This document shows, in pieces, positions 9,299 to 19,841 of a DNA stretch of 50,613 nucleotides. How positions within the stretch are numbered: position 1 is the stretch's first letter; every line of letters begins with the position of its first letter. A model generated the notes under the pieces. That model was not told the DNA's origin. It did no database searches and saw nothing but the letters and a program-made list of their open reading frames with translations. Origin of the DNA: Spirochaetaceae bacterium. GTDB taxonomy: Bacteria; Spirochaetota; Spirochaetia; DSM-2461. The stretch covers positions 1 through 50,613 of the forward strand of contig JARGFR010000006.1 of NCBI GenBank assembly GCA_029210985.1, read 5' to 3'. A program made the position numbers and the translations under genes.

Positions 9299-10663
9299 AT
9301 GAGTAAACTGTGGTCTAAGGGTTACGAATTGGACGCCATGGTGGAGGATTTCACCGTGGGAGAAGACTATATACTTGATGACAGGCTCATCTCCGCCGAT
9401 GTCCTGGGCAGTCTGGCCCACGCCACGATGCTGGAGAGGGTGAGACTCCTGGACCATGATGCCCTGACGGCCCTTCGCAGGGGCCTCCTGACGATTCTCG
9501 ACGAGCACGAGAATGGAAGTTTCACCATCCACCGATCAGATGAGGATGGTCATACGGCGATTGAAAATCGACTTGTCGATCTGGTGGGAGATGCCGGAAA
9601 GCGCATACATCTGGGCCGGAGCCGAAACGATCAAGTGCTCACCACCCTGAGAATCTGGATGCGCCATTATCTGTTTCACTCCGTGGACGTCGGCGGCCGT
9701 TTGGTTTCCAGTCTGCTGGATTTTGCTGAGACATATCGCGATGTGCCTATGCCGGGACGTACCCATATGCAGCCGGCGATGCCCTCTTCGGTGGGACTTT
9801 GGTCCGGCGGTTTCGCCGAACAGCTTCTGGACGATCTGAGGTGTCTTGCCGGCCTGTTTCCCTATTTTGACCAATGCCCGCTGGGTTCCGGAGCGGGGTA
9901 TGGGACGCCTCTGCCCTTGGATAGGGAATTTACCGCTTCTCTTCTGGGATTTTCCCGTATTCAATCCAATGCCGCTTACAGCGGATTGTCCCGGGGCAAA
10001 TTTGAATCCCGACTCCTTGATTCCCTGGATCAGATAGCCATCACTCTTTCGAAACTGGCCACCGACCTCATCCTCTTCTCCCTGCCTGAGTTCGGATGGT
10101 TTTCACTTCCCCAGGAGCTCTGCACGGGTTCCAGCATCATGCCCCAGAAACGCAATCCCGATGCTCTGGAACTGATGCGTTCCAAGGCCGCATCAATCGG
10201 TGCGTTTGCCGGTCAGGTGAAATCAATCATTCGTTCTCTCCCCTCAGGCTACAATCGAGATTTCCAGGATACCAAGGATCCTATGATGAAAGGTGCGGAC
10301 ACCGCTCTTTCCATGATGGAAGTGAGTGGTTTGACGATAAGGAATCTCGGAGTCAATGAGGATAAGCTGCTCGCGTCTTTCAACGACGGGATTTTCGCCA
10401 CCGACGCTGCTATCTCATTGGTGGCCGAGGGTATGTCCTTCCGTGACGCATATCGTGAAGTCGGAACACATCCCGAGCGCTATTCCGGGAGAAATCCGAA
10501 GTCGGCCATTCTCGATAGAAGAAGCACGGGCACAGCCGGGAACCTGGCACTCGAGACGGCCGGGAGCGGACTGCTGGATATTCTGGAAGAGAACCGGGAG
10601 CACAGAAGTACGGTGGAAGCCGCTCTGACGAAGCTCGCCGGACGAGAAGTCACCATCATCTAA
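9299..10663 (+). CDS. argH: Argininosuccinate lyase
   Basis: 454 aa; GSSIMPQKRNPDALELMRSKA signature, SRNDQV motif. Confidence 0.95.
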   Translation: MSKLWSKGYELDAMVEDFTVGEDYILDDRLISADVLGSLAHATMLERVRLLDHDALTALRRGLLTILDEHENGSFTIHRSDEDGHTAIENRLVDLVGDAGKRIHLGRSRNDQVLTTLRIWMRHYLFHSVDVGGRLVSSLLDFAETYRDVPMPGRTHMQPAMPSSVGLWSGGFAEQLLDDLRCLAGLFPYFDQCPLGSGAGYGTPLPLDREFTASLLGFSRIQSNAAYSGLSRGKFESRLLDSLDQIAITLSKLATDLILFSLPEFGWFSLPQELCTGSSIMPQKRNPDALELMRSKAASIGAFAGQVKSIIRSLPSGYNRDFQDTKDPMMKGADTALSMMEVSGLTIRNLGVNEDKLLASFNDGIFATDAAISLVAEGMSFRDAYREVGTHPERYSGRNPKSAILDRRSTGTAGNLALETAGSGLLDILEENREHRSTVEAALTKLAGREVTII

Positions 10664-11859
10664 TCCTCGGTGAGTTCCTGAATCTGCTCGATGAGATCCT
10701 TGAGTTTCTGATTTTCGGCCTCACTGCCAGCCAGTTCGGTTTCCAGAATATCTCCTCTTGTCTTTTCCATCTCCAATTGGGCCTGTATCTCCGCATTTCT
10801 GGCGGCGATTCTCGCGGCTTCTCTGCTGGATTCATCCGCCAGGTTCGCCTGATCGGCGAAAGTGCTCTTCAATTCGGCCAGCCGCCTCTCGTAGTCTTCT
10901 TTCAGGCGTTCCACAAGGGGCCGTACCTCGGGTTTCTCAGCGAGAGTTTCTTCCACCCCGAAGGGTATCAAGTCGATTTCCAGATAGGTATCGGAGTCGG
11001 CTGTCAATTCAAAGGCTTTATCTTCGAATCCCCTTCTGCGTACCCGGACGTCGATCACCGAATCCTCCGGCAGCAAGCTTCTGAATCGGCCCGTTCCGGT
11101 CTTGAGTCCGTCGATGTAAATATCCGAGTCCGGTGGATTGACAACGATTTCCACCAGTATCGGCTTCGGAGCTTCGGCAAATCCGAAGGGCATGGCCGGC
11201 AGGGGTGCCGCCGATGCCAGTCTGGCGCGATTCGTGTCGCTTAACCGTGCAACCTTTGCGGGTGGAGCATCGGGCCGCACATCGAGCTGCTGTTCCGGTC
11301 CCACGGAAACTCTGCCGCCTTCGACAGCCCCCCTGACCGCGACATTCCCTTCACCAACCAGGAGTAATGTGCCGTCGGCGGATTTCAAGATAACAAATTC
11401 GGTGCCGCGAACCTCGTATTCCGTGCCGTCCGCTTCAATGACGATGGATTCGGAATCCTCAAGCTTTTCGACTTTATAGGACAGGGATCCGGTGAGAATC
11501 TCTGTCCGAAGTTCCAGTTTCTGGTCGGCCCCGGTGAGGCGCATGAATCGAACCAATGTATCACTGCCCAATAAGGCGCTGCCCTTATCCGCAAATTGGA
11601 CCTGGGCAACAGCGCCTTCGGTAACTTTCACGACATCTCCGGGCTGCAGAATTTCCCCAGGGAAAGCCGGGATGGTTTCATCCCCGCGAATGACGTATAC
11701 CGGACCGGCGATGTGGGTGATGACGGCGGATTGCCCTTCCGGAAGTGGCGGTGCTTTTGTGACCGGATTATCCGTCAGGCTGCCGTAGAGTGTGACACCG
11801 CCCAATGTGAAAAGGATGCCGATAATTCCACCCAACACGACACGCAGTATGGGTTTCAT
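10660..11859 (-). CDS. FecR-domain membrane protein with PEGA-like domain and C-terminal coiled coil
   Basis: N-terminal TM, FecR-like core (GDVVKVTEGAVAQVQFADKGSALLGSDT...GTEYEVRGTEFVI), PEGA-like PPDSDIYIDGLKTGTGRFRSLLPEDSVIDVRVRRRGFE, EL-rich tail. Start at 11859 (MKPILRV) preferred over track start 11892 because it follows the upstream stop. Confidence 0.8.
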   Translation of the reverse strand: MKPILRVVLGGIIGILFTLGGVTLYGSLTDNPVTKAPPLPEGQSAVITHIAGPVYVIRGDETIPAFPGEILQPGDVVKVTEGAVAQVQFADKGSALLGSDTLVRFMRLTGADQKLELRTEILTGSLSYKVEKLEDSESIVIEADGTEYEVRGTEFVILKSADGTLLLVGEGNVAVRGAVEGGRVSVGPEQQLDVRPDAPPAKVARLSDTNRARLASAAPLPAMPFGFAEAPKPILVEIVVNPPDSDIYIDGLKTGTGRFRSLLPEDSVIDVRVRRRGFEDKAFELTADSDTYLEIDLIPFGVEETLAEKPEVRPLVERLKEDYERRLAELKSTFADQANLADESSREAARIAARNAEIQAQLEMEKTRGDILETELAGSEAENQKLKDLIEQIQELTED

Positions 11860-11863
11860 CGTT

Positions 11864-12190
11864 TCAGCCACCATGAGATTTGAGTCGTTCAAGGATGAAT
11901 GAGCGCAGATTGGCGTCCATTTCCTTCGATCCCTGTTCCATCAATGCCAAGAGCCGGTTTTTGTTATATGGACCATCGGACATCAGCAATGATTTGCTCT
12001 CCCCAGTCGATGTTCTCACTCGCTTCCAGGTGATGGTTCGGGTGCCGGCGAGTTTGTCGTAGCAGATCTGGAATCCTTCGAGTTTTCGATCTAGGTCATA
12101 CCAGAGAATCAACTCCAAATCCTCGTCAACAAACCATCTGCGGAACGGTTCACCCTCAATCTGTCGAACTTTTTTCAATTCACGAAGCAT
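11864..12190 (-). CDS. Conserved small protein of unknown function
   Basis: 108 aa ORF directly upstream of the FecR gene, same strand. Confidence 0.6.
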   Translation of the reverse strand: MLRELKKVRQIEGEPFRRWFVDEDLELILWYDLDRKLEGFQICYDKLAGTRTITWKRVRTSTGESKSLLMSDGPYNKNRLLALMEQGSKEMDANLRSFILERLKSHGG

Positions 12191-12428: not shown

Positions 12429-13262
12429 TCAGGATTTTCGCTTGCCGCGATGAATGGTGGCAAGAGTCAATGCGGTGACGGCGACAATGTAAGGCAGGGC
12501 GAGAATCAGTGTACCGGAAACGCCTTCTATCCCCTGTGCTCTTCCTGATATAATTTCTATCAGGGAAAATAAATAGGACGCTACTATTATACCGATGGGA
12601 CTTCGGAAACCCAGCCAGATAACCACCAGCGCAATCCATCCCCGCCCCGAGCTCATTCCAGGGACAAATGCGTCGATTCTCATCACAAGAATCATACCGG
12701 CCAAGGCGGCTGAAACGGATGAAATCAGCAGTGCAGTCAACTGTGTTCTCTGAGGCGGTATACCGCGTTCACTGAGGAAAATCGGGGTGGATCCGGCGGT
12801 CTTGATTCGCCGTCCGAATTCGGTTCTGTTCATCATCAGCAAGGCGCCGAAACTCAAAGGAATCATGGCCATGGCGAAGATGAGCATTCCCGAGGCCGGA
12901 AAGCGGGATATCTCATCGACGCCGAATCTTATGGTGCCCTTATGTCCCCATACGGACTGGGAAATCAGGCCGGCAAGGGAGGGTGCGAGGAGGTTGATGC
13001 CCAAACCGGCGATGAAGAGGTTCGCTCCGAGGCCGAGGTGCATGCCGGCCAGCAGCCCGCCGAAAAGGAGTCCGGATAAAAGGGCGGCCAAAGCGGCGAG
13101 AATAGGTGATCCTCCGGAGGTGAGCACCCATGCCGCACTGAAAGCCCCGGCGGTGATGCAGCCTTCCAAAGAAATGTTGAGCACACCGGCCCGCTCGGAA
13201 ATCAATCCGCCCAAGGCAGCCAGTATCAACGGCACTGAGGCCATGGCGACGGCTTCGATCAT
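12429..13262 (-). CDS. rfuD: ABC transporter permease (RfuD-like)
   Basis: BPD_transp_2-type permease, MIEAVAMASVPLILAALGGLISERAGVLNISLEG; start 13262 overlaps the upstream stop (ATGA). Confidence 0.75.
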   Translation of the reverse strand: MIEAVAMASVPLILAALGGLISERAGVLNISLEGCITAGAFSAAWVLTSGGSPILAALAALLSGLLFGGLLAGMHLGLGANLFIAGLGINLLAPSLAGLISQSVWGHKGTIRFGVDEISRFPASGMLIFAMAMIPLSFGALLMMNRTEFGRRIKTAGSTPIFLSERGIPPQRTQLTALLISSVSAALAGMILVMRIDAFVPGMSSGRGWIALVVIWLGFRSPIGIIVASYLFSLIEIISGRAQGIEGVSGTLILALPYIVAVTALTLATIHRGKRKS

Positions 13263-14272
13263 GCCGACCTCCCACGACCGGTGAGCAGCCGCGTTGTCAC
13301 AAATAGAAATATGACGGCCTGGACAATGCCGCTCAAGGCGAAAGAAAACCCCGTATGCATCATCGCCGCCCGAGTACCGTGGATGAGCCATGCATAGGCC
13401 AATGCCGCAGGAACGATCAATTCAGGCCGGCTTCCGGCAATCAGAGCCACAGCCAGACCGTCCCAGCCCAAGCCTGATGTGAAGCCCTGAACAGCCTGTC
13501 CGCTGTCCAGGAGGGCCGCGGTGCCCGCCAAACCATACAAACCTCCGGAGGCCGCCATGGATGCCACCGCAATCCGACCTGTGCGAATTCCGCCGTATCG
13601 GGCGAAAACCTCGTTGGCGCCCTTAAGCCGCCATTCGTAGCCTTTGTGGGTCGATCTCAAAAAGACCGTAGCTCCGGACGCCGCGGCAATAGCCCAAACC
13701 ACTGGTACTCCCAACCGAGACGGCGGCCACCACGCGGCGATTCGGTATGCGCCGGGCAGGGGAGGTGCGGCGATCAGATAACTTCCGACATCTTTCATCG
13801 GTCCCCCCAGGAGAACCTGCCCCACCGGAAGAACGGCGGCTGAAATCAGGAATGTACTGATGAGTTCATCAACTCCCCATCGTGCGCGAAGGCCTCCGGA
13901 GACGGCTCCGAGAGCGGCTCCCGCAGTTATGCCCACCAGGACCGCGATGAACGGTGCGATATGACGGGGCAGAGACGGAAACGCCAGGGCCAGAGCCGCG
14001 GCGGTGATTCCTCCGAAGAGAGCCTGACCTTCTCCTCCCAAGTTGAATGAGCCGGCACGGAACGCCAGGGCTGCGGCCAGGCCGGCGATGGTGAGTTTGG
14101 CCGCCGACTCCAGGACATTGCCGAATGCCAGGCTGCTCATTGCCGGTCCTGCGGCCAGGTAAGCTATCGCCCTGCCGGGTTCGTCGCTGAGAAGTGCCGT
14201 GACGGCGGCCGTCACCGCCAAAGCCGCGGCCAGGGCGATGGAAGGCGAAGTCAGTGGATTCAATCTCTTCAT
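13259..14272 (-). CDS. rfuC: ABC transporter permease (RfuC-like)
   Basis: 337 aa; AFRAGSFNLGGEGQALFGG permease motif; ATGA overlap with the ATPase gene. Confidence 0.75.
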   Translation of the reverse strand: MKRLNPLTSPSIALAAALAVTAAVTALLSDEPGRAIAYLAAGPAMSSLAFGNVLESAAKLTIAGLAAALAFRAGSFNLGGEGQALFGGITAAALALAFPSLPRHIAPFIAVLVGITAGAALGAVSGGLRARWGVDELISTFLISAAVLPVGQVLLGGPMKDVGSYLIAAPPLPGAYRIAAWWPPSRLGVPVVWAIAAASGATVFLRSTHKGYEWRLKGANEVFARYGGIRTGRIAVASMAASGGLYGLAGTAALLDSGQAVQGFTSGLGWDGLAVALIAGSRPELIVPAALAYAWLIHGTRAAMMHTGFSFALSGIVQAVIFLFVTTRLLTGRGRSA

Positions 14273-15807
14273 ACCGTCTCCAGATTATCGGCGATGAGCC
14301 GCATCGCGGCTTCTCTATCCCAGGATGAAGTGTTCAATATTTCCGAAAGTCGGCCGCCGGAGAGAACAGCCATACGATCCGAGAGTTCCATTGCTTCATC
14401 AAGGTCGGAAGCCAGCAGGAGAATGGCGGCACCCTTTCCGGCAGCGGATCTTAATTGACCATGGATGCGTTGACGACTCTTCTCGTCCAGCCCCCAGGTG
14501 GGGTCGGCGACAACAATCAAACGGGCGTCCTGGGTGAGTTCACGCTGGAGTATCACTTTCTGGATATTTCCGCCTGAGAGCTCGTTGAGCGTCTGCCCGG
14601 TCTTTCCCTCAATGTCCCCTTCACGCCGCCGATTTTCAGTCCAGCGATGGATCGTGGACGGCGGCAGCAGACCTCGCCGGGTCAGTCTTCTGGATTCCAG
14701 CAGTATGAGGTTCTCGGCAAGGGTGGATTCCAGGCTCGCGCCTCTCCCCGTCTTATCCGAGGGCACGTATCGCAGTCCCTTTTCACGCATGGTAATCGGG
14801 TCGGAGGAAACCAATCGACCGTCCAGCATCATACGCCCCGAGTCGGGTTTGACATTTCCCGAAACAACATCCTCCAAAACCCCGAGACCCTCTTCCTTGA
14901 GACCCGTGATTCCAAGTATCTCCCCGGAATTCAAATCAAATGTCATCTCGGATAGGACTTTCCGACCGGAGTCTTCCAGTTCGACCCCGGCCAGAGAAAG
15001 GCGCGGCGGTTCGATGGATTGATTTATTCTTTGGATGCCGGAATCCGATTCCGTTGTGTCCCTGTGATGTTCGTAAGGATTCCAGTCACCGAATATCTCT
15101 GTGGAGATTGTTTCCAGTTCAACAGAATCGATTTCATGTGTACCGACGACGAAACCCTGACGCATCACGGTGACGGTGTCGGCGATACGAAAAACATCTC
15201 TCAGCCGATGAGTAATCAGCAAGACGGTGTGCCCTGATGTTTTGAGCGTTTTAAGCAGATTGAAGAACTCATCGGCCCGTCCTTCCTCCCAAGCCGATGC
15301 CGGTTCATCCAGAATGAGTATGGAGGGTTTAAACATCAGGGCTGCGGTCAGTTCCGCCCGCTGTCTGCCGGCGGCATCCATACCGGCCGCCCGGGCATGG
15401 GGATCGACTCCGCTCAGACCCCACTGTTCGGCAGTCCTTTGAAAGAGATTGACGGCTTCAATGCGGCGGCGTGGTCTCTCGGAGCGTCCGAGGACGGCGG
15501 CTTCCCAAGCCGTCAGGTTCGGCGGCCAGACGCTGCGCTGCCTGACCAGGCCGACTCCCGGCAGAAATCCCGGATTTCGTTTTGCCAGATTGAAATCCCC
15601 GAATCCCGTCAGAAGCCGGCCTGAATCCGGTCGGAGCACTCCAGCCAGAATATGACCCAGAGTTGTTTTGCCGGCACCATTCTCTCCCACCAGGGCATGA
15701 ACGGAACCGGGCATGAGACGAAGGGAGGCGTTCCGGCATACCTGAACGCCTGTTGTCGGCCATGTATGGCCGACACCCTTCAAAATCGCCGAAGCATCAG
15801 CCATCAA
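14269..15807 (-). CDS. rfuB: ABC transporter ATP-binding protein, two NBDs (RfuB-like)
   Basis: 512 aa; first-domain Walker A GENGAGKTTLGH, Walker B ILILDEP; second-domain ELSGGNIQKVILQREL with degenerate Walker A. Confidence 0.78.
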   Translation of the reverse strand: MMADASAILKGVGHTWPTTGVQVCRNASLRLMPGSVHALVGENGAGKTTLGHILAGVLRPDSGRLLTGFGDFNLAKRNPGFLPGVGLVRQRSVWPPNLTAWEAAVLGRSERPRRRIEAVNLFQRTAEQWGLSGVDPHARAAGMDAAGRQRAELTAALMFKPSILILDEPASAWEEGRADEFFNLLKTLKTSGHTVLLITHRLRDVFRIADTVTVMRQGFVVGTHEIDSVELETISTEIFGDWNPYEHHRDTTESDSGIQRINQSIEPPRLSLAGVELEDSGRKVLSEMTFDLNSGEILGITGLKEEGLGVLEDVVSGNVKPDSGRMMLDGRLVSSDPITMREKGLRYVPSDKTGRGASLESTLAENLILLESRRLTRRGLLPPSTIHRWTENRRREGDIEGKTGQTLNELSGGNIQKVILQRELTQDARLIVVADPTWGLDEKSRQRIHGQLRSAAGKGAAILLLASDLDEAMELSDRMAVLSGGRLSEILNTSSWDREAAMRLIADNLETV

Positions 15808-16819
15808 GAGTCCTGAGGCTCAGGTTTCCGGATTTCATACGTTCCAACACCTCGGCCATCTGGTCTGCGATCGACTCGGGAACATGCTTCCGGAAGTCCT
15901 TTCCGTCCATGGGAAAATCGACATACCCCTCGACAATACCCAGCCGATTGGACTGTCCCATCTCCATATCTCCGTTAATCCATTGTTCCACCGCTTCGGC
16001 GGCGGCTCTGTCCTGGTGTATCACAGCACTGGCCAGAACCGTTCCGGGGGCGAATCCGGTTCCGTCCGAATCGAACCATAGGACATAGGTGCCGTTCTCT
16101 TTAGCCGCCGCGATGACGCCTTGATTTGCTCCACCGGCTATGGTGAGTATCACATCCACTCCGTCCTGATACAAACCGGAAGCCAGTTCGCGTGCCTTTT
16201 CGGCATCGTACCAGTTTCCGAGAATCCGGACTTCCATTTTGATGTCGGGATTCACCGTGTGCATGCCGATTTCGTATCCGGGCAGAATCTCCCGATTCAT
16301 CTGGGGATATTCCTGCCCGATGATCATACCGACTTTGAGCTGATCATTGGCCCCTTCCAAATCCTCCGACTCGGTCACCAGGGCGGCGAAATAACCGATC
16401 AGGAAAGCTTGCTCCCGGTGGTCGTAAACCAGGTCGCTGACACCATTGCCGGTGAGTCCTGATCCGTCCAGAACCAGAAATTCCTGATCCGGATAGCTCT
16501 CGGCGGCCTTTACCGCGATTTCGGACATCGCCGGGTTCGATGTGACAATGAGGCCGTACCGGCCTTCAGAGGCGAGCACCATCAGTTGGTTTTCCCAGGA
16601 AGCCTGGTCGAAGCCGCCTTCAACCGTCTTGACTTCGATTTCGGCCTTTTCAGCGGAGACACGGACCCCTTGGTCCATCATCTCGTAAGTGGGACTGCCT
16701 TCCAGAACACCGGGCACAAATACCGCTATCGATTGAGTCGCGTTTCCATCGCGATCACCGCATGACGCAGCCAACACCGTGATGACGATGGCTGTCAAAA
16801 AAAGAAATCTGTTACGCAT
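15797..16819 (-). CDS. rfuA: BmpA/PnrA-family substrate-binding lipoprotein, predicted riboflavin-binding (RfuA-like)
   Basis: Lipoprotein signal MRNRFLFLTAIVITVLAASC; PnrA-like fold sequence; ATG 16819 preceded by GGGAGAAG. Downstream of an FMN riboswitch. Confidence 0.78.
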   Translation of the reverse strand: MRNRFLFLTAIVITVLAASCGDRDGNATQSIAVFVPGVLEGSPTYEMMDQGVRVSAEKAEIEVKTVEGGFDQASWENQLMVLASEGRYGLIVTSNPAMSEIAVKAAESYPDQEFLVLDGSGLTGNGVSDLVYDHREQAFLIGYFAALVTESEDLEGANDQLKVGMIIGQEYPQMNREILPGYEIGMHTVNPDIKMEVRILGNWYDAEKARELASGLYQDGVDVILTIAGGANQGVIAAAKENGTYVLWFDSDGTGFAPGTVLASAVIHQDRAAAEAVEQWINGDMEMGQSNRLGIVEGYVDFPMDGKDFRKHVPESIADQMAEVLERMKSGNLSLRTLDG

Positions 16820-16826
16820 GTCTCTT

Positions 16827-16852
16827 CTCCCATCAGGTATATCCCATGGGAG
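16827..16852 (-). promoter_or_regulatory. RBS-sequestering hairpin of the riboswitch expression platform
   Basis: CTCCCAT/ATGGGAG inverted repeat covers the GGGAG Shine-Dalgarno of rfuA. Confidence 0.55.
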
Positions 16853-16903
16853 GGAAAAACGGAAAAGGACGGACCACGGGTATATTATCCGTGTTTCCAT
16901 GCC

Positions 16904-17059
16904 CTCTCTCCTATCCAGACTTACACTGTCGGTTCCGGAATTTCACCGTATCCCCCGCGTCTGAAGCTCTGACCCGACCTGCAGAACAGGGCGTTTCGGC
17001 TCGACTCGGATTGCGGACTGTCACCGCCGGTCGGGATCGAAATCCCTCCCTCGAGAAAG
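16904..17059 (-). ncRNA. FMN riboswitch (RFN element)
   Basis: Minus strand: CTTTCTCGAGGGAGGGATTTCGATCCCGACCGGCGGTGACAGTCCGC...GGTGAAATTCCGGAACCGACAGTGTAAGTCTGGATAGGAGAGAG; matches RFN core segments, with P1 closure CTTTCTC/GAGAGAG. Confidence 0.95.
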
Positions 17060-17068
17060 CGTCGGTTA

Positions 17069-17097
17069 AAGATAAGACGATCAACCCAAACCGTCAA
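17069..17097 (-). promoter_or_regulatory. Candidate sigma70 promoter for the riboswitch/rfu operon
   Basis: Minus strand TTGACG-17 nt-TATCTT immediately upstream of the aptamer. Confidence 0.65.
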
Positions 17098-17199: not shown

Positions 17200-18486
17200 A
17201 TGAGTTTTGCCAAGCCCACCTCTTTGGGGGTGATAGCCTGCCCCGGCGGAGAAACTTTCGCCGAAGAAATCGTCGCTCATCTAAAAACCATATATCAGCG
17301 CCGTTTTGAGAAAAAGGCGCAGTTCATTTCCAAGTTATACGATTTACCGCAAGACGAGACTTTCCGTCAGCTCAATATGTCCGACGATCTGTTGAGTCAT
17401 CGGGTGACCGCCGTCGGCGGTTCGGAGAAATATCGCTTTCCGTCTTTTAAGATTCCTACCAAATTTACCCGCTTTGCCAATGGTGAAATCAAGACCGAGC
17501 TTCTCAGAACGGTCCGGGGCATGGATCTTTTTATTGTTCAGGATGTCGCAAACGAAACTCCGGTCAGGCTTGGCGATGAGATTCGAGAGCTGTCGGTTAA
17601 TGATCATTTGATGACGCTGTTGACCGCCGTAGACGCCGCCCATCAGGCGGGAGCCCGTCGTGTCTCTTTGGTTCTGCCGTCTTATCCCTACAGTCGTCAG
17701 CACAAGAAAAAAGGTCGGGAAGGACTGACGGCGTCGATGCTGGGACGCATGCTGGAAAATATGGATGTGGCCCGGATTATCACCTTGGACATTCATTCCC
17801 GGGAAATCGAACACACATTTAAAACCCTGAGTCTGGAAAACCTTCATGCATCCTATCAGATACTTCGAACCGCCAGTTCCTTTATTAATTTGGTAAATGA
17901 GGACCTTGTGGTTGTTTCTCCCGATACCGGCGCCATCGACAGAAACAAGTTTTATGCCGACAGCCTGAAGAAGCCTCTTGCCCTGTTATATAAGGAAAGA
18001 GACTATGCCAGAACCTCACGCAGTGCCTATGAATCCAACATCATCAATGCCAGGCTGCTCGGGGATGTTGAGGGTAAAACGGTCTTTATGGCGGATGACA
18101 TGCTGGGCACGGGCGGTACGTTGATAAAAGCGATGAAGCTCATTCGGGAAATGGGAGCCAGGAAGATTATCTGCAGCGTTTCGCTTCCTCTATTCTCGGG
18201 TGATGCCGGAAAGCATTTTGACGAAGCATATGAGGACGGATGGTTCGACTACGTCATCGGCACAAATGCCGTCTGTCTTCCTGATGAAATTCTCTCTCGG
18301 CCGTGGTATCGCTCGGCCAATGTCTCCAATCTTTTTGCCAGAGCCATCAGCCGGGTGCACCATAACCGTTCGGTTTCCCCGCTCCTGGATAACAGCAAAA
18401 TGATCCAGCGTATGCTCAGCAAACAGTCACGGCAAAGAGATCCGGATCTGTTCTCCAACGATTCCGGGGGAATCCCGACAAGATGA
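17200..18486 (+). CDS. prs: Ribose-phosphate pyrophosphokinase (long form)
   Basis: 428 aa; RFANGEIKTEL, LVLPSYPYSRQHKK, PRPP loop VFMADDMLGTGGTLIKA. Confidence 0.88.
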   Translation: MSFAKPTSLGVIACPGGETFAEEIVAHLKTIYQRRFEKKAQFISKLYDLPQDETFRQLNMSDDLLSHRVTAVGGSEKYRFPSFKIPTKFTRFANGEIKTELLRTVRGMDLFIVQDVANETPVRLGDEIRELSVNDHLMTLLTAVDAAHQAGARRVSLVLPSYPYSRQHKKKGREGLTASMLGRMLENMDVARIITLDIHSREIEHTFKTLSLENLHASYQILRTASSFINLVNEDLVVVSPDTGAIDRNKFYADSLKKPLALLYKERDYARTSRSAYESNIINARLLGDVEGKTVFMADDMLGTGGTLIKAMKLIREMGARKIICSVSLPLFSGDAGKHFDEAYEDGWFDYVIGTNAVCLPDEILSRPWYRSANVSNLFARAISRVHHNRSVSPLLDNSKMIQRMLSKQSRQRDPDLFSNDSGGIPTR

Positions 18487-19841
18487 TTCTTGCAGCCGAT
18501 CTGGGTACCGGGTCACTCAAGGCAGGCCTTCTGGCTCCTGATGGTACGCTGACGGCGCGAGTTCGCATTCCATATCCCCATCCATCGGGCCTTGGACGCG
18601 AAGATTTTGATTCATTTCAATGGGAAGATGCCTTCCGTGAAGCTCTGAAGCGACTTCCTCCGGCTCGTCTCTCGGCGGTGGCTCTCAGCGGCAACGGTCC
18701 GACGCTGGTTCCCTGCGATGCGGCCGGCATACCGTTGGCGCCGGCGGATCTCTGGCTGCAGAACCGATCGATTCGACATGAAGGAACAGACTCATACTAC
18801 CTGCCGAAGGCGGCATGGCTGAAAGCTCATGACCACGGCACATGGAAAAATACCCGAATACTTCTCTCATGCCCGGAATGGCTTCAGTTCCGTCTGACAG
18901 GTCGGCCGGTGATGGTGCTGCCCAACGAAAGTTTTCGGCGCTATATATGGGATGACCGGCAGCTCTCCGCATACGATCTCGACGCCGGCCTGTTTCCGGA
19001 AGTCGTTCCGATGGGTTCGATTGTCGGCGGGGTAACCGGGAATGCTTCGGTTCGATTCGGACTGCCTGTCGGTTTGCCCCTTGTGGCCGTGGGTTCGGAT
19101 TTTATGGCTGCGCTGCTTGGAAGCGGAGCCATCGAACCCGGCATGGTCTGCGATCGAGCGGGCACAAGTGAAGGAATTAATTATTGCGCCTCACACCCGT
19201 CCGGAGACAAACGGCTCCGCGACCTTCCTCATGTCGTTGAGGGGCTATGGAATGCCGCTGTCATTTTGTCGTCCACCGGAGCGGTTTTCGAATGGTACAG
19301 GCGTCTGACAGGTCAGGTGAATCGTTCATATGAAGAAACCCTCTCCGCCGTCGCCGATACGACCCCGGGGCAGAGAGCGCCTCTTTTCTTTCCCGGCCCC
19401 CGGGGCGATGTACTTTGGGAGTTCGGCGGTGGAAGTTTTCACCTGCTGGAACCCGGACATGGTCCGGCCGAAATGGGTCGTGCTGTAATGGAGGCCATCG
19501 GATTTGCGGTTCGACGGGGAGTGGAACTTCTGGAAGCCGCCGGACTGCCCGTCGTCGACATGCGTGTCACCGGCGGACAGGCCCGGGGACGGGTCTGGAA
19601 TCAGATGAAGGCGGATATCGTTGGGAAACAGCTGTTAATACCGGACATTGAAGACGCGGAATTGGCCGGCGCCGCCGCCTGCGCTTCGGCCGCTCTGGGA
19701 CGTTCGGAGAATATACTCGAAGCGTCCCGCAACTATGTCCGCATTCGGGAGGTTGTTGACCCGGATGCCGAAGTCGGTGCGGCTTACGATGAAGCCTATG
19801 CACGATATCGTGAAGCGGTCGGATCGCTGCTTCATCGGTAG
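18483..19841 (+). CDS. FGGY-family carbohydrate kinase (xylulokinase-like)
   Basis: MILAADLGTGSLKAGLLAPDG..., VTGGQARGRVWNQMKADIVGKQL; ATGA overlap with prs. Confidence 0.85.
   Translation: MILAADLGTGSLKAGLLAPDGTLTARVRIPYPHPSGLGREDFDSFQWEDAFREALKRLPPARLSAVALSGNGPTLVPCDAAGIPLAPADLWLQNRSIRHEGTDSYYLPKAAWLKAHDHGTWKNTRILLSCPEWLQFRLTGRPVMVLPNESFRRYIWDDRQLSAYDLDAGLFPEVVPMGSIVGGVTGNASVRFGLPVGLPLVAVGSDFMAALLGSGAIEPGMVCDRAGTSEGINYCASHPSGDKRLRDLPHVVEGLWNAAVILSSTGAVFEWYRRLTGQVNRSYEETLSAVADTTPGQRAPLFFPGPRGDVLWEFGGGSFHLLEPGHGPAEMGRAVMEAIGFAVRRGVELLEAAGLPVVDMRVTGGQARGRVWNQMKADIVGKQLLIPDIEDAELAGAAACASAALGRSENILEASRNYVRIREVVDPDAEVGAAYDEAYARYREAVGSLLHR

Follow-up and report, generated by a model that had tools for sequence, protein, structure and literature searches.

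A predicted RfuABCD-type riboflavin importer behind an FMN riboswitch in a spirochaete genome, and a candidate kinase beside it

The four-gene locus at positions 12429 to 17097 of the window (the whole stretch of 50,613 nucleotides analyzed here) raises the question of which substrate it imports. By homology alone, a lipoprotein, an ATPase, and two permeases of these families would be annotated as a nucleoside or sugar importer, whereas the first-pass annotation had proposed the RfuABCD system. The evidence from sequence comparison points with high probability to an RfuABCD-type riboflavin ABC importer under the control of an FMN riboswitch, an identity that would correct the annotation based on homology. 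The genes are the following:

16819-15797, minus strand: rfuA, predicted riboflavin-binding lipoprotein of the PnrA-like superfamily, RfuA clade (Pfam, tree, and residues)
15804-14269, minus strand: rfuB, double-domain ABC ATPase (Pfam ABC_tran)
14272-13259, minus strand: rfuC, permease, BPD_transp_2 (Pfam)
13262-12429, minus strand: rfuD, permease, BPD_transp_2 (Pfam)

All of the components required of an RfuABCD importer (lipoprotein, double ATPase, and two permeases) were present. The rfuA product matched the Bmp family (PF02608) with 224.8 bits, ABC_tran matched two stretches of RfuB, and BPD_transp_2 matched both permeases. The four genes overlap briefly, as had been described before, by 8 nt between rfuA and rfuB and by 4 nt (ATGA) at both the rfuB/rfuC and the rfuC/rfuD junctions. 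The rfuA start at 16819 has a good Shine-Dalgarno sequence and opens a lipoprotein signal (MRNRFLFLTAIVITVLAASC); an in-frame ATG at 16900 was rejected as the start because it runs into the end of the aptamer, 27 codons ahead of that signal. RfuA would bind riboflavin in the periplasm, RfuC and RfuD would pass it through the inner membrane, and RfuB would power this transport with ATP. Downstream of rfuD, on the same strand, lie genes for a 108-amino-acid protein with no Pfam match (11864-12190) and a FecR-domain protein (10660-11892), both kept in several relatives.

The identity of the lipoprotein bears on the substrate. It scored 234 bits against RfuA of Treponema pallidum (TP0298, PDB 4iil) versus 85 bits against PnrA (PDB 2fqw). 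A tree was built from 53 proteins. TP0298 was joined in it by the window protein together with a further 12 homologues linked to riboswitches, while PnrA, BmpD, and almost every other Bmp paralogue lay across a branch with 100/100 support, so that the window lipoprotein did not fall in the PnrA clade; the exception was one long-branched protein of a Borrelia-like genome (G044), found on the RfuA side. Within the RfuA clade, TP0298 paired with the protein of another relative (G049) and not with that of the window. Thirty-five diagnostic positions were common to the RfuA orthologues and TP0298 and rare in PnrA-type proteins (among them S42-P43-Y45, S94-N95-P96, N202-W203-Y204, N232-Q233, and W248), and the window protein retained 33 of them, including W203, Y204, and W248. 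We infer that these positions may contact the flavin.

A PnrA-type purine-nucleoside importer or a sugar importer, with a riboswitch that is incidental or a relic, would agree with the superfamily to which the lipoprotein belongs, and related systems elsewhere are found with riboswitches for purine or SAM (PMC4418817) or in clusters with nucleoside catabolism genes (PMC10199937). However, the separation of RfuA from PnrA makes this reading very unlikely, as do the intact aptamer, the conserved promoter, and the genome's second Bmp-type protein, which is PnrA-like, falls with PnrA in the tree, and is encoded at a different locus (C47). A nucleoside importer was thus rejected on bit scores, tree, and diagnostic residues. 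The earlier proposal that the RfuABCD system is present here is supported, given the membership in the RfuA clade, the match to the FMN aptamer model, and the riboflavin synthesis genes that were not found. The proposal had also described the system as one of pathogenic spirochaetes: it is indeed a known PnrA-like importer, but that range was too narrow, as RfuA occurs widely among environmental members of the class. The window rfuA had its nearest named relatives in Spirochaeta sp. and in Spirochaetes metagenome genomes, and their records suggest a free-living organism that is not among the known pathogens.

Regulation by FMN was examined in the leader, which contains three elements:

17097-17069, minus strand: sigma-70-type promoter TTGACG-17-TATCTT (sequence and conservation in congeners)
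17062-16899, minus strand: FMN riboswitch aptamer, RF00050 (covariance-model match of 71.1 bits)
16898-16819, minus strand: probable translational expression platform with the hairpin CUCCCAU/AUGGGAG (RNA folds)

The aptamer, which had been reported to precede the operon, matched RF00050 over its full length (model positions 1-138), above the gathering score of 66.2 bits and with an E value of 3.3e-14, and was the sole match in the 3.68-Mb draft genome (G000). Its score was low for the class, in which most other aptamers reached 79 to 115 bits; one variable stem-loop carries a long insert, and the core is intact. The promoter was present as previously described, with TTGACG at 17097-17092, a 17-nt spacer, and TATCTT at 17074-17069. 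Two promoter-like sites were found in the region versus 0.4 in shuffled sequences, and the rfu promoter was kept in three congeners, with identical hexamers in G007 and G008, TATTTT in G005, and the same spacing in all three. Elsewhere in the class, a relative (G006, L033 1240-1385) has a broken FMN riboswitch before rfuA, in which the promoter and the 5' half were retained while the aptamer had lost its 3' half and the expression platform was gone; rfuBCD was not on that contig, and a putative MarR-like open reading frame, named by eye, lay directly upstream.

In the 80 nt between the aptamer and rfuA, a hairpin contains the rfuA Shine-Dalgarno sequence (GGGAGAAGAGAC-AUG) as its 3' arm, and no terminator-like site was found between the aptamer and rfuA in the window. 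Hairpins sequestering the Shine-Dalgarno sequence were also seen in the rfu leaders of G005, G007, G008, G012, G017, and G021, which makes seven leaders including that of the window. Since folding of the leader can mask the Shine-Dalgarno sequence of rfuA and no terminator is present, FMN probably represses translation of the rfu operon. When FMN is plentiful, it would bind the aptamer and stabilize P1, leaving the anti-Shine-Dalgarno arm free, so that the hairpin would hide the rfuA Shine-Dalgarno sequence and translation of the coupled operon would drop; when FMN is scarce, the 3' strand of P1 would pair elsewhere and rfuA would be translated. The pairing partner was clearest in G007 and G008, where the 3' strand of P1 (GAGAGAGGG) is perfectly complementary over 9 nt to CCCTCTCTC of the anti-Shine-Dalgarno arm; in G012 and G021, AUGGGAG complements CUCCCAU. 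In the window, the corresponding pairing reached -9.2 kcal/mol, a value that 480 of 500 shuffled sequences equaled or bettered, and a perfect antisequestor was therefore rejected there. Additionally, the minimum-energy fold of the window leader hides the Shine-Dalgarno sequence even without the aptamer fold. As predicted from folding, antisequestor pairing by the 3' strand of P1 is thus convincing in G007 and G008 and weak in the window.

Control by transcription attenuation instead of translation appears quite unlikely in the window, given the missing terminator-like site and the sequestering hairpin that seven related leaders form at the start codon. It would nonetheless gain from the orphan aptamer of a relative (G011), behind which lies a terminator-like hairpin with a T run, and both modes may exist in the class. 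That orphan aptamer (L007 1501-1615, minus strand) is strong, at 110.6 bits, and no recognizable gene lay within 1.5 kb of it.

If the locus imports riboflavin, the extent to which the organism relies on it becomes the next question. The window genome is a draft in 341 contigs (95% complete, 5% contamination), and searches for RibH (PF00885), RibE (PF00677), and RibB (PF00926) found none of the three, while all bacterial controls were positive. This likely reflects a riboflavin auxotroph, with the caveat that absence from a 95%-complete draft is not proof, and the dependence on imported flavin that had been raised as a possibility is accordingly likely. The organism probably depends on imported riboflavin, and import is probably its only flavin source because the de novo pathway is missing. 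Single absences of rib genes in incomplete drafts are weak evidence, and a repeated pattern is stronger: of nine genomes sampled from the genus, all of them drafts, eight had no RibH, while the ninth (G005) had kept a rib operon and carried two riboswitches, placed ahead of rib and of rfu, respectively.

The same pattern was seen in a survey of 61 genomes of the class (the window genome and 60 relatives), 26 of which belong to the family of the window genome. An FMN riboswitch lay within 400 bp of rfuA in 15 genomes, 10 of them without RibH, and in every RibH-less genome with an FMN riboswitch (n = 10) it stood in this position; among the RibH-less genomes of the survey, no riboswitch above the cutoff was found anywhere other than at rfuA. 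Inspection of 11 loci at an E value of 0.05 revealed no missed FMN riboswitch before other rfuA genes. The window thus comes from a spirochaete lineage in which the loss of riboflavin synthesis accompanies a riboswitch-controlled importer. In two contigs (L216 of G029 and L268 of G006), rfuA was followed directly by NptA or by the 108-amino-acid gene, without rfuBCD; these are split or decayed operons, or assembly artifacts.

Since the switch has FMN as its ligand, riboflavin must be phosphorylated in the cell, and the proposed route would include a kinase that standard models miss. The classical flavokinase domain (PF01687) was found in only one of the 61 genomes (G058), and the CTP-dependent riboflavin kinase (PF01982) in none, with positive controls for both. 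Outside the family of the window genome, most relatives carried an FAD synthetase with a short C-terminal part without the PTAN motif (type II form); T. pallidum has been reported to have only an FAD synthetase of type II form, without the kinase motif (PMC2972280). Within the family (26 genomes, including G011 in one contig and G010 in two), no Pfam match to an FAD synthetase exceeded the cutoff. A divergent FAD synthetase was also rejected, as a class-specific profile matched nothing beyond another protein of about 360 to 400 amino acids, and that weakly and in part. Judging from these models, both steps from riboflavin to FAD are without known enzymes in the family, many members of which nevertheless synthesize riboflavin. 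Extra flavin genes in the rib operons of relatives were considered as kinase candidates, but none was conserved beyond ribD-E-BA-H. The kinase gap that was reported earlier for T. pallidum (PMC2972280) is seen here across the class.

If FMN or a different form of flavin were imported, the missing kinase would be bypassed, which could account for the absence of PF01687 and PF01982 from the window genome and of a convincing FAD synthetase from the family. We regard such import as highly improbable, because relatives with a complete riboflavin pathway, some assembled in one or two contigs (G011, G010), are also without a known kinase, and an unrecognized kinase must therefore exist. Moreover, TP0298, the nearest characterized protein, binds riboflavin (PMC4418817). 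Riboflavin as the imported form thus remains our reading, and a candidate for the missing kinase was found among the neighbors of the operon:

17200-18486, plus strand: PRPP synthetase (PRK06827 type), divergent neighbor in a conserved neighborhood
18483-19841, plus strand: FGGY kinase of a spirochaete-wide clade with the motif GTSEG(I/L)N, candidate riboflavin kinase

Two sequence features mark the FGGY group: NGP at the position of the substrate motif, and GTSEG(I/L)N close to the catalytic Asp. Its catalytic residues are intact, and in a tree a branch with 100/100 support set it apart from other FGGY kinases encoded in the genomes that carry it, with several members on very long branches. 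The neighbor was rejected as a xylulokinase: it scored 164.8 bits against a curated XylB cutoff of 380 and has NGP where XylB has the QMH of its motif QMHG. The clade occurred in 55 of the 61 genomes and was absent from G058, the sole genome with a classical flavokinase. Of the 39 genomes with both the kinase and rfuA, 24 had the two within 5 kb of each other. The kinase was usually the second gene after the PRPP synthetase and divergent from rfuA; in G010, G015, G019, and G051, it stood next to rfuA without the PRPP synthetase. In G047, the homologue (L141 6499-7935) was the fifth gene of an FMN-riboswitch rfu operon, overlapping rfuD, and the PRPP synthetase was elsewhere. A carbohydrate kinase under an FMN riboswitch is also known in Clostridium ljungdahlii (PMC4418817).

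We tentatively propose, as a rather unlikely possibility drawn from genomic context, that these FGGY kinases replaced the usual bacterial riboflavin kinase and would convert riboflavin, whether imported or made in the cell, into the FMN sensed by the riboswitch by phosphorylation at the ribityl 5'-OH. Several observations speak against it. Elsewhere the kinase stays with the PRPP synthetase gene or, in a sister group, with a polyol dehydrogenase and an aldolase, an association suggestive of sugar metabolism. ArgH and NptA are likewise retained near rfu, and the linkage of the FGGY kinase with rfu may therefore reflect ancestral gene order; one genome (G039) had no candidate at all. In L183, L205, and L206, a cassette of zinc-dependent polyol-type dehydrogenase, FGGY kinase, and DeoC-type aldolase adjoined rfu-like genes without a riboswitch. 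The Borrelia-like G044, so assigned by its bmp gene cluster, has a member of the group near the position of BB0545, a gene annotated as xylB (PMC2600328); a transposon mutant of Borrelia listed for bb0545 is viable, but the product name does not match (PMC3485029). If the proposal were true, FMN production in spirochaetes, including pathogens, would rest on an enzyme that differs from the one used by other bacteria and by their hosts. The class-wide kinase gap together with the FGGY candidate is the part worth following.

Compared with known systems, the window operon is close in makeup to RfuABCD of T. pallidum, with which it shares the four-component PnrA-like ABC importer, the RfuA clade, and the diagnostic residues; in contrast, it is under an FMN riboswitch and comes from an environmental relative. 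PnrA (TmpC), a nucleoside-binding lipoprotein, belongs to the same Pfam family as the window RfuA but forms a separate clade and is without the NWY, WFD, and SNP residues. For Spirochaeta smaragdinae, of the same class, an FMN riboswitch before an rfuABCD homologue (Spirs_0556-0553) was published in 2015 (PMC4418817), and the window system is known in kind because of that report; likened by description, the two show no known difference in kind. The pairing of an FMN riboswitch with rfuABCD is thus already known, and the window adds a further case, in an apparently free-living relative.
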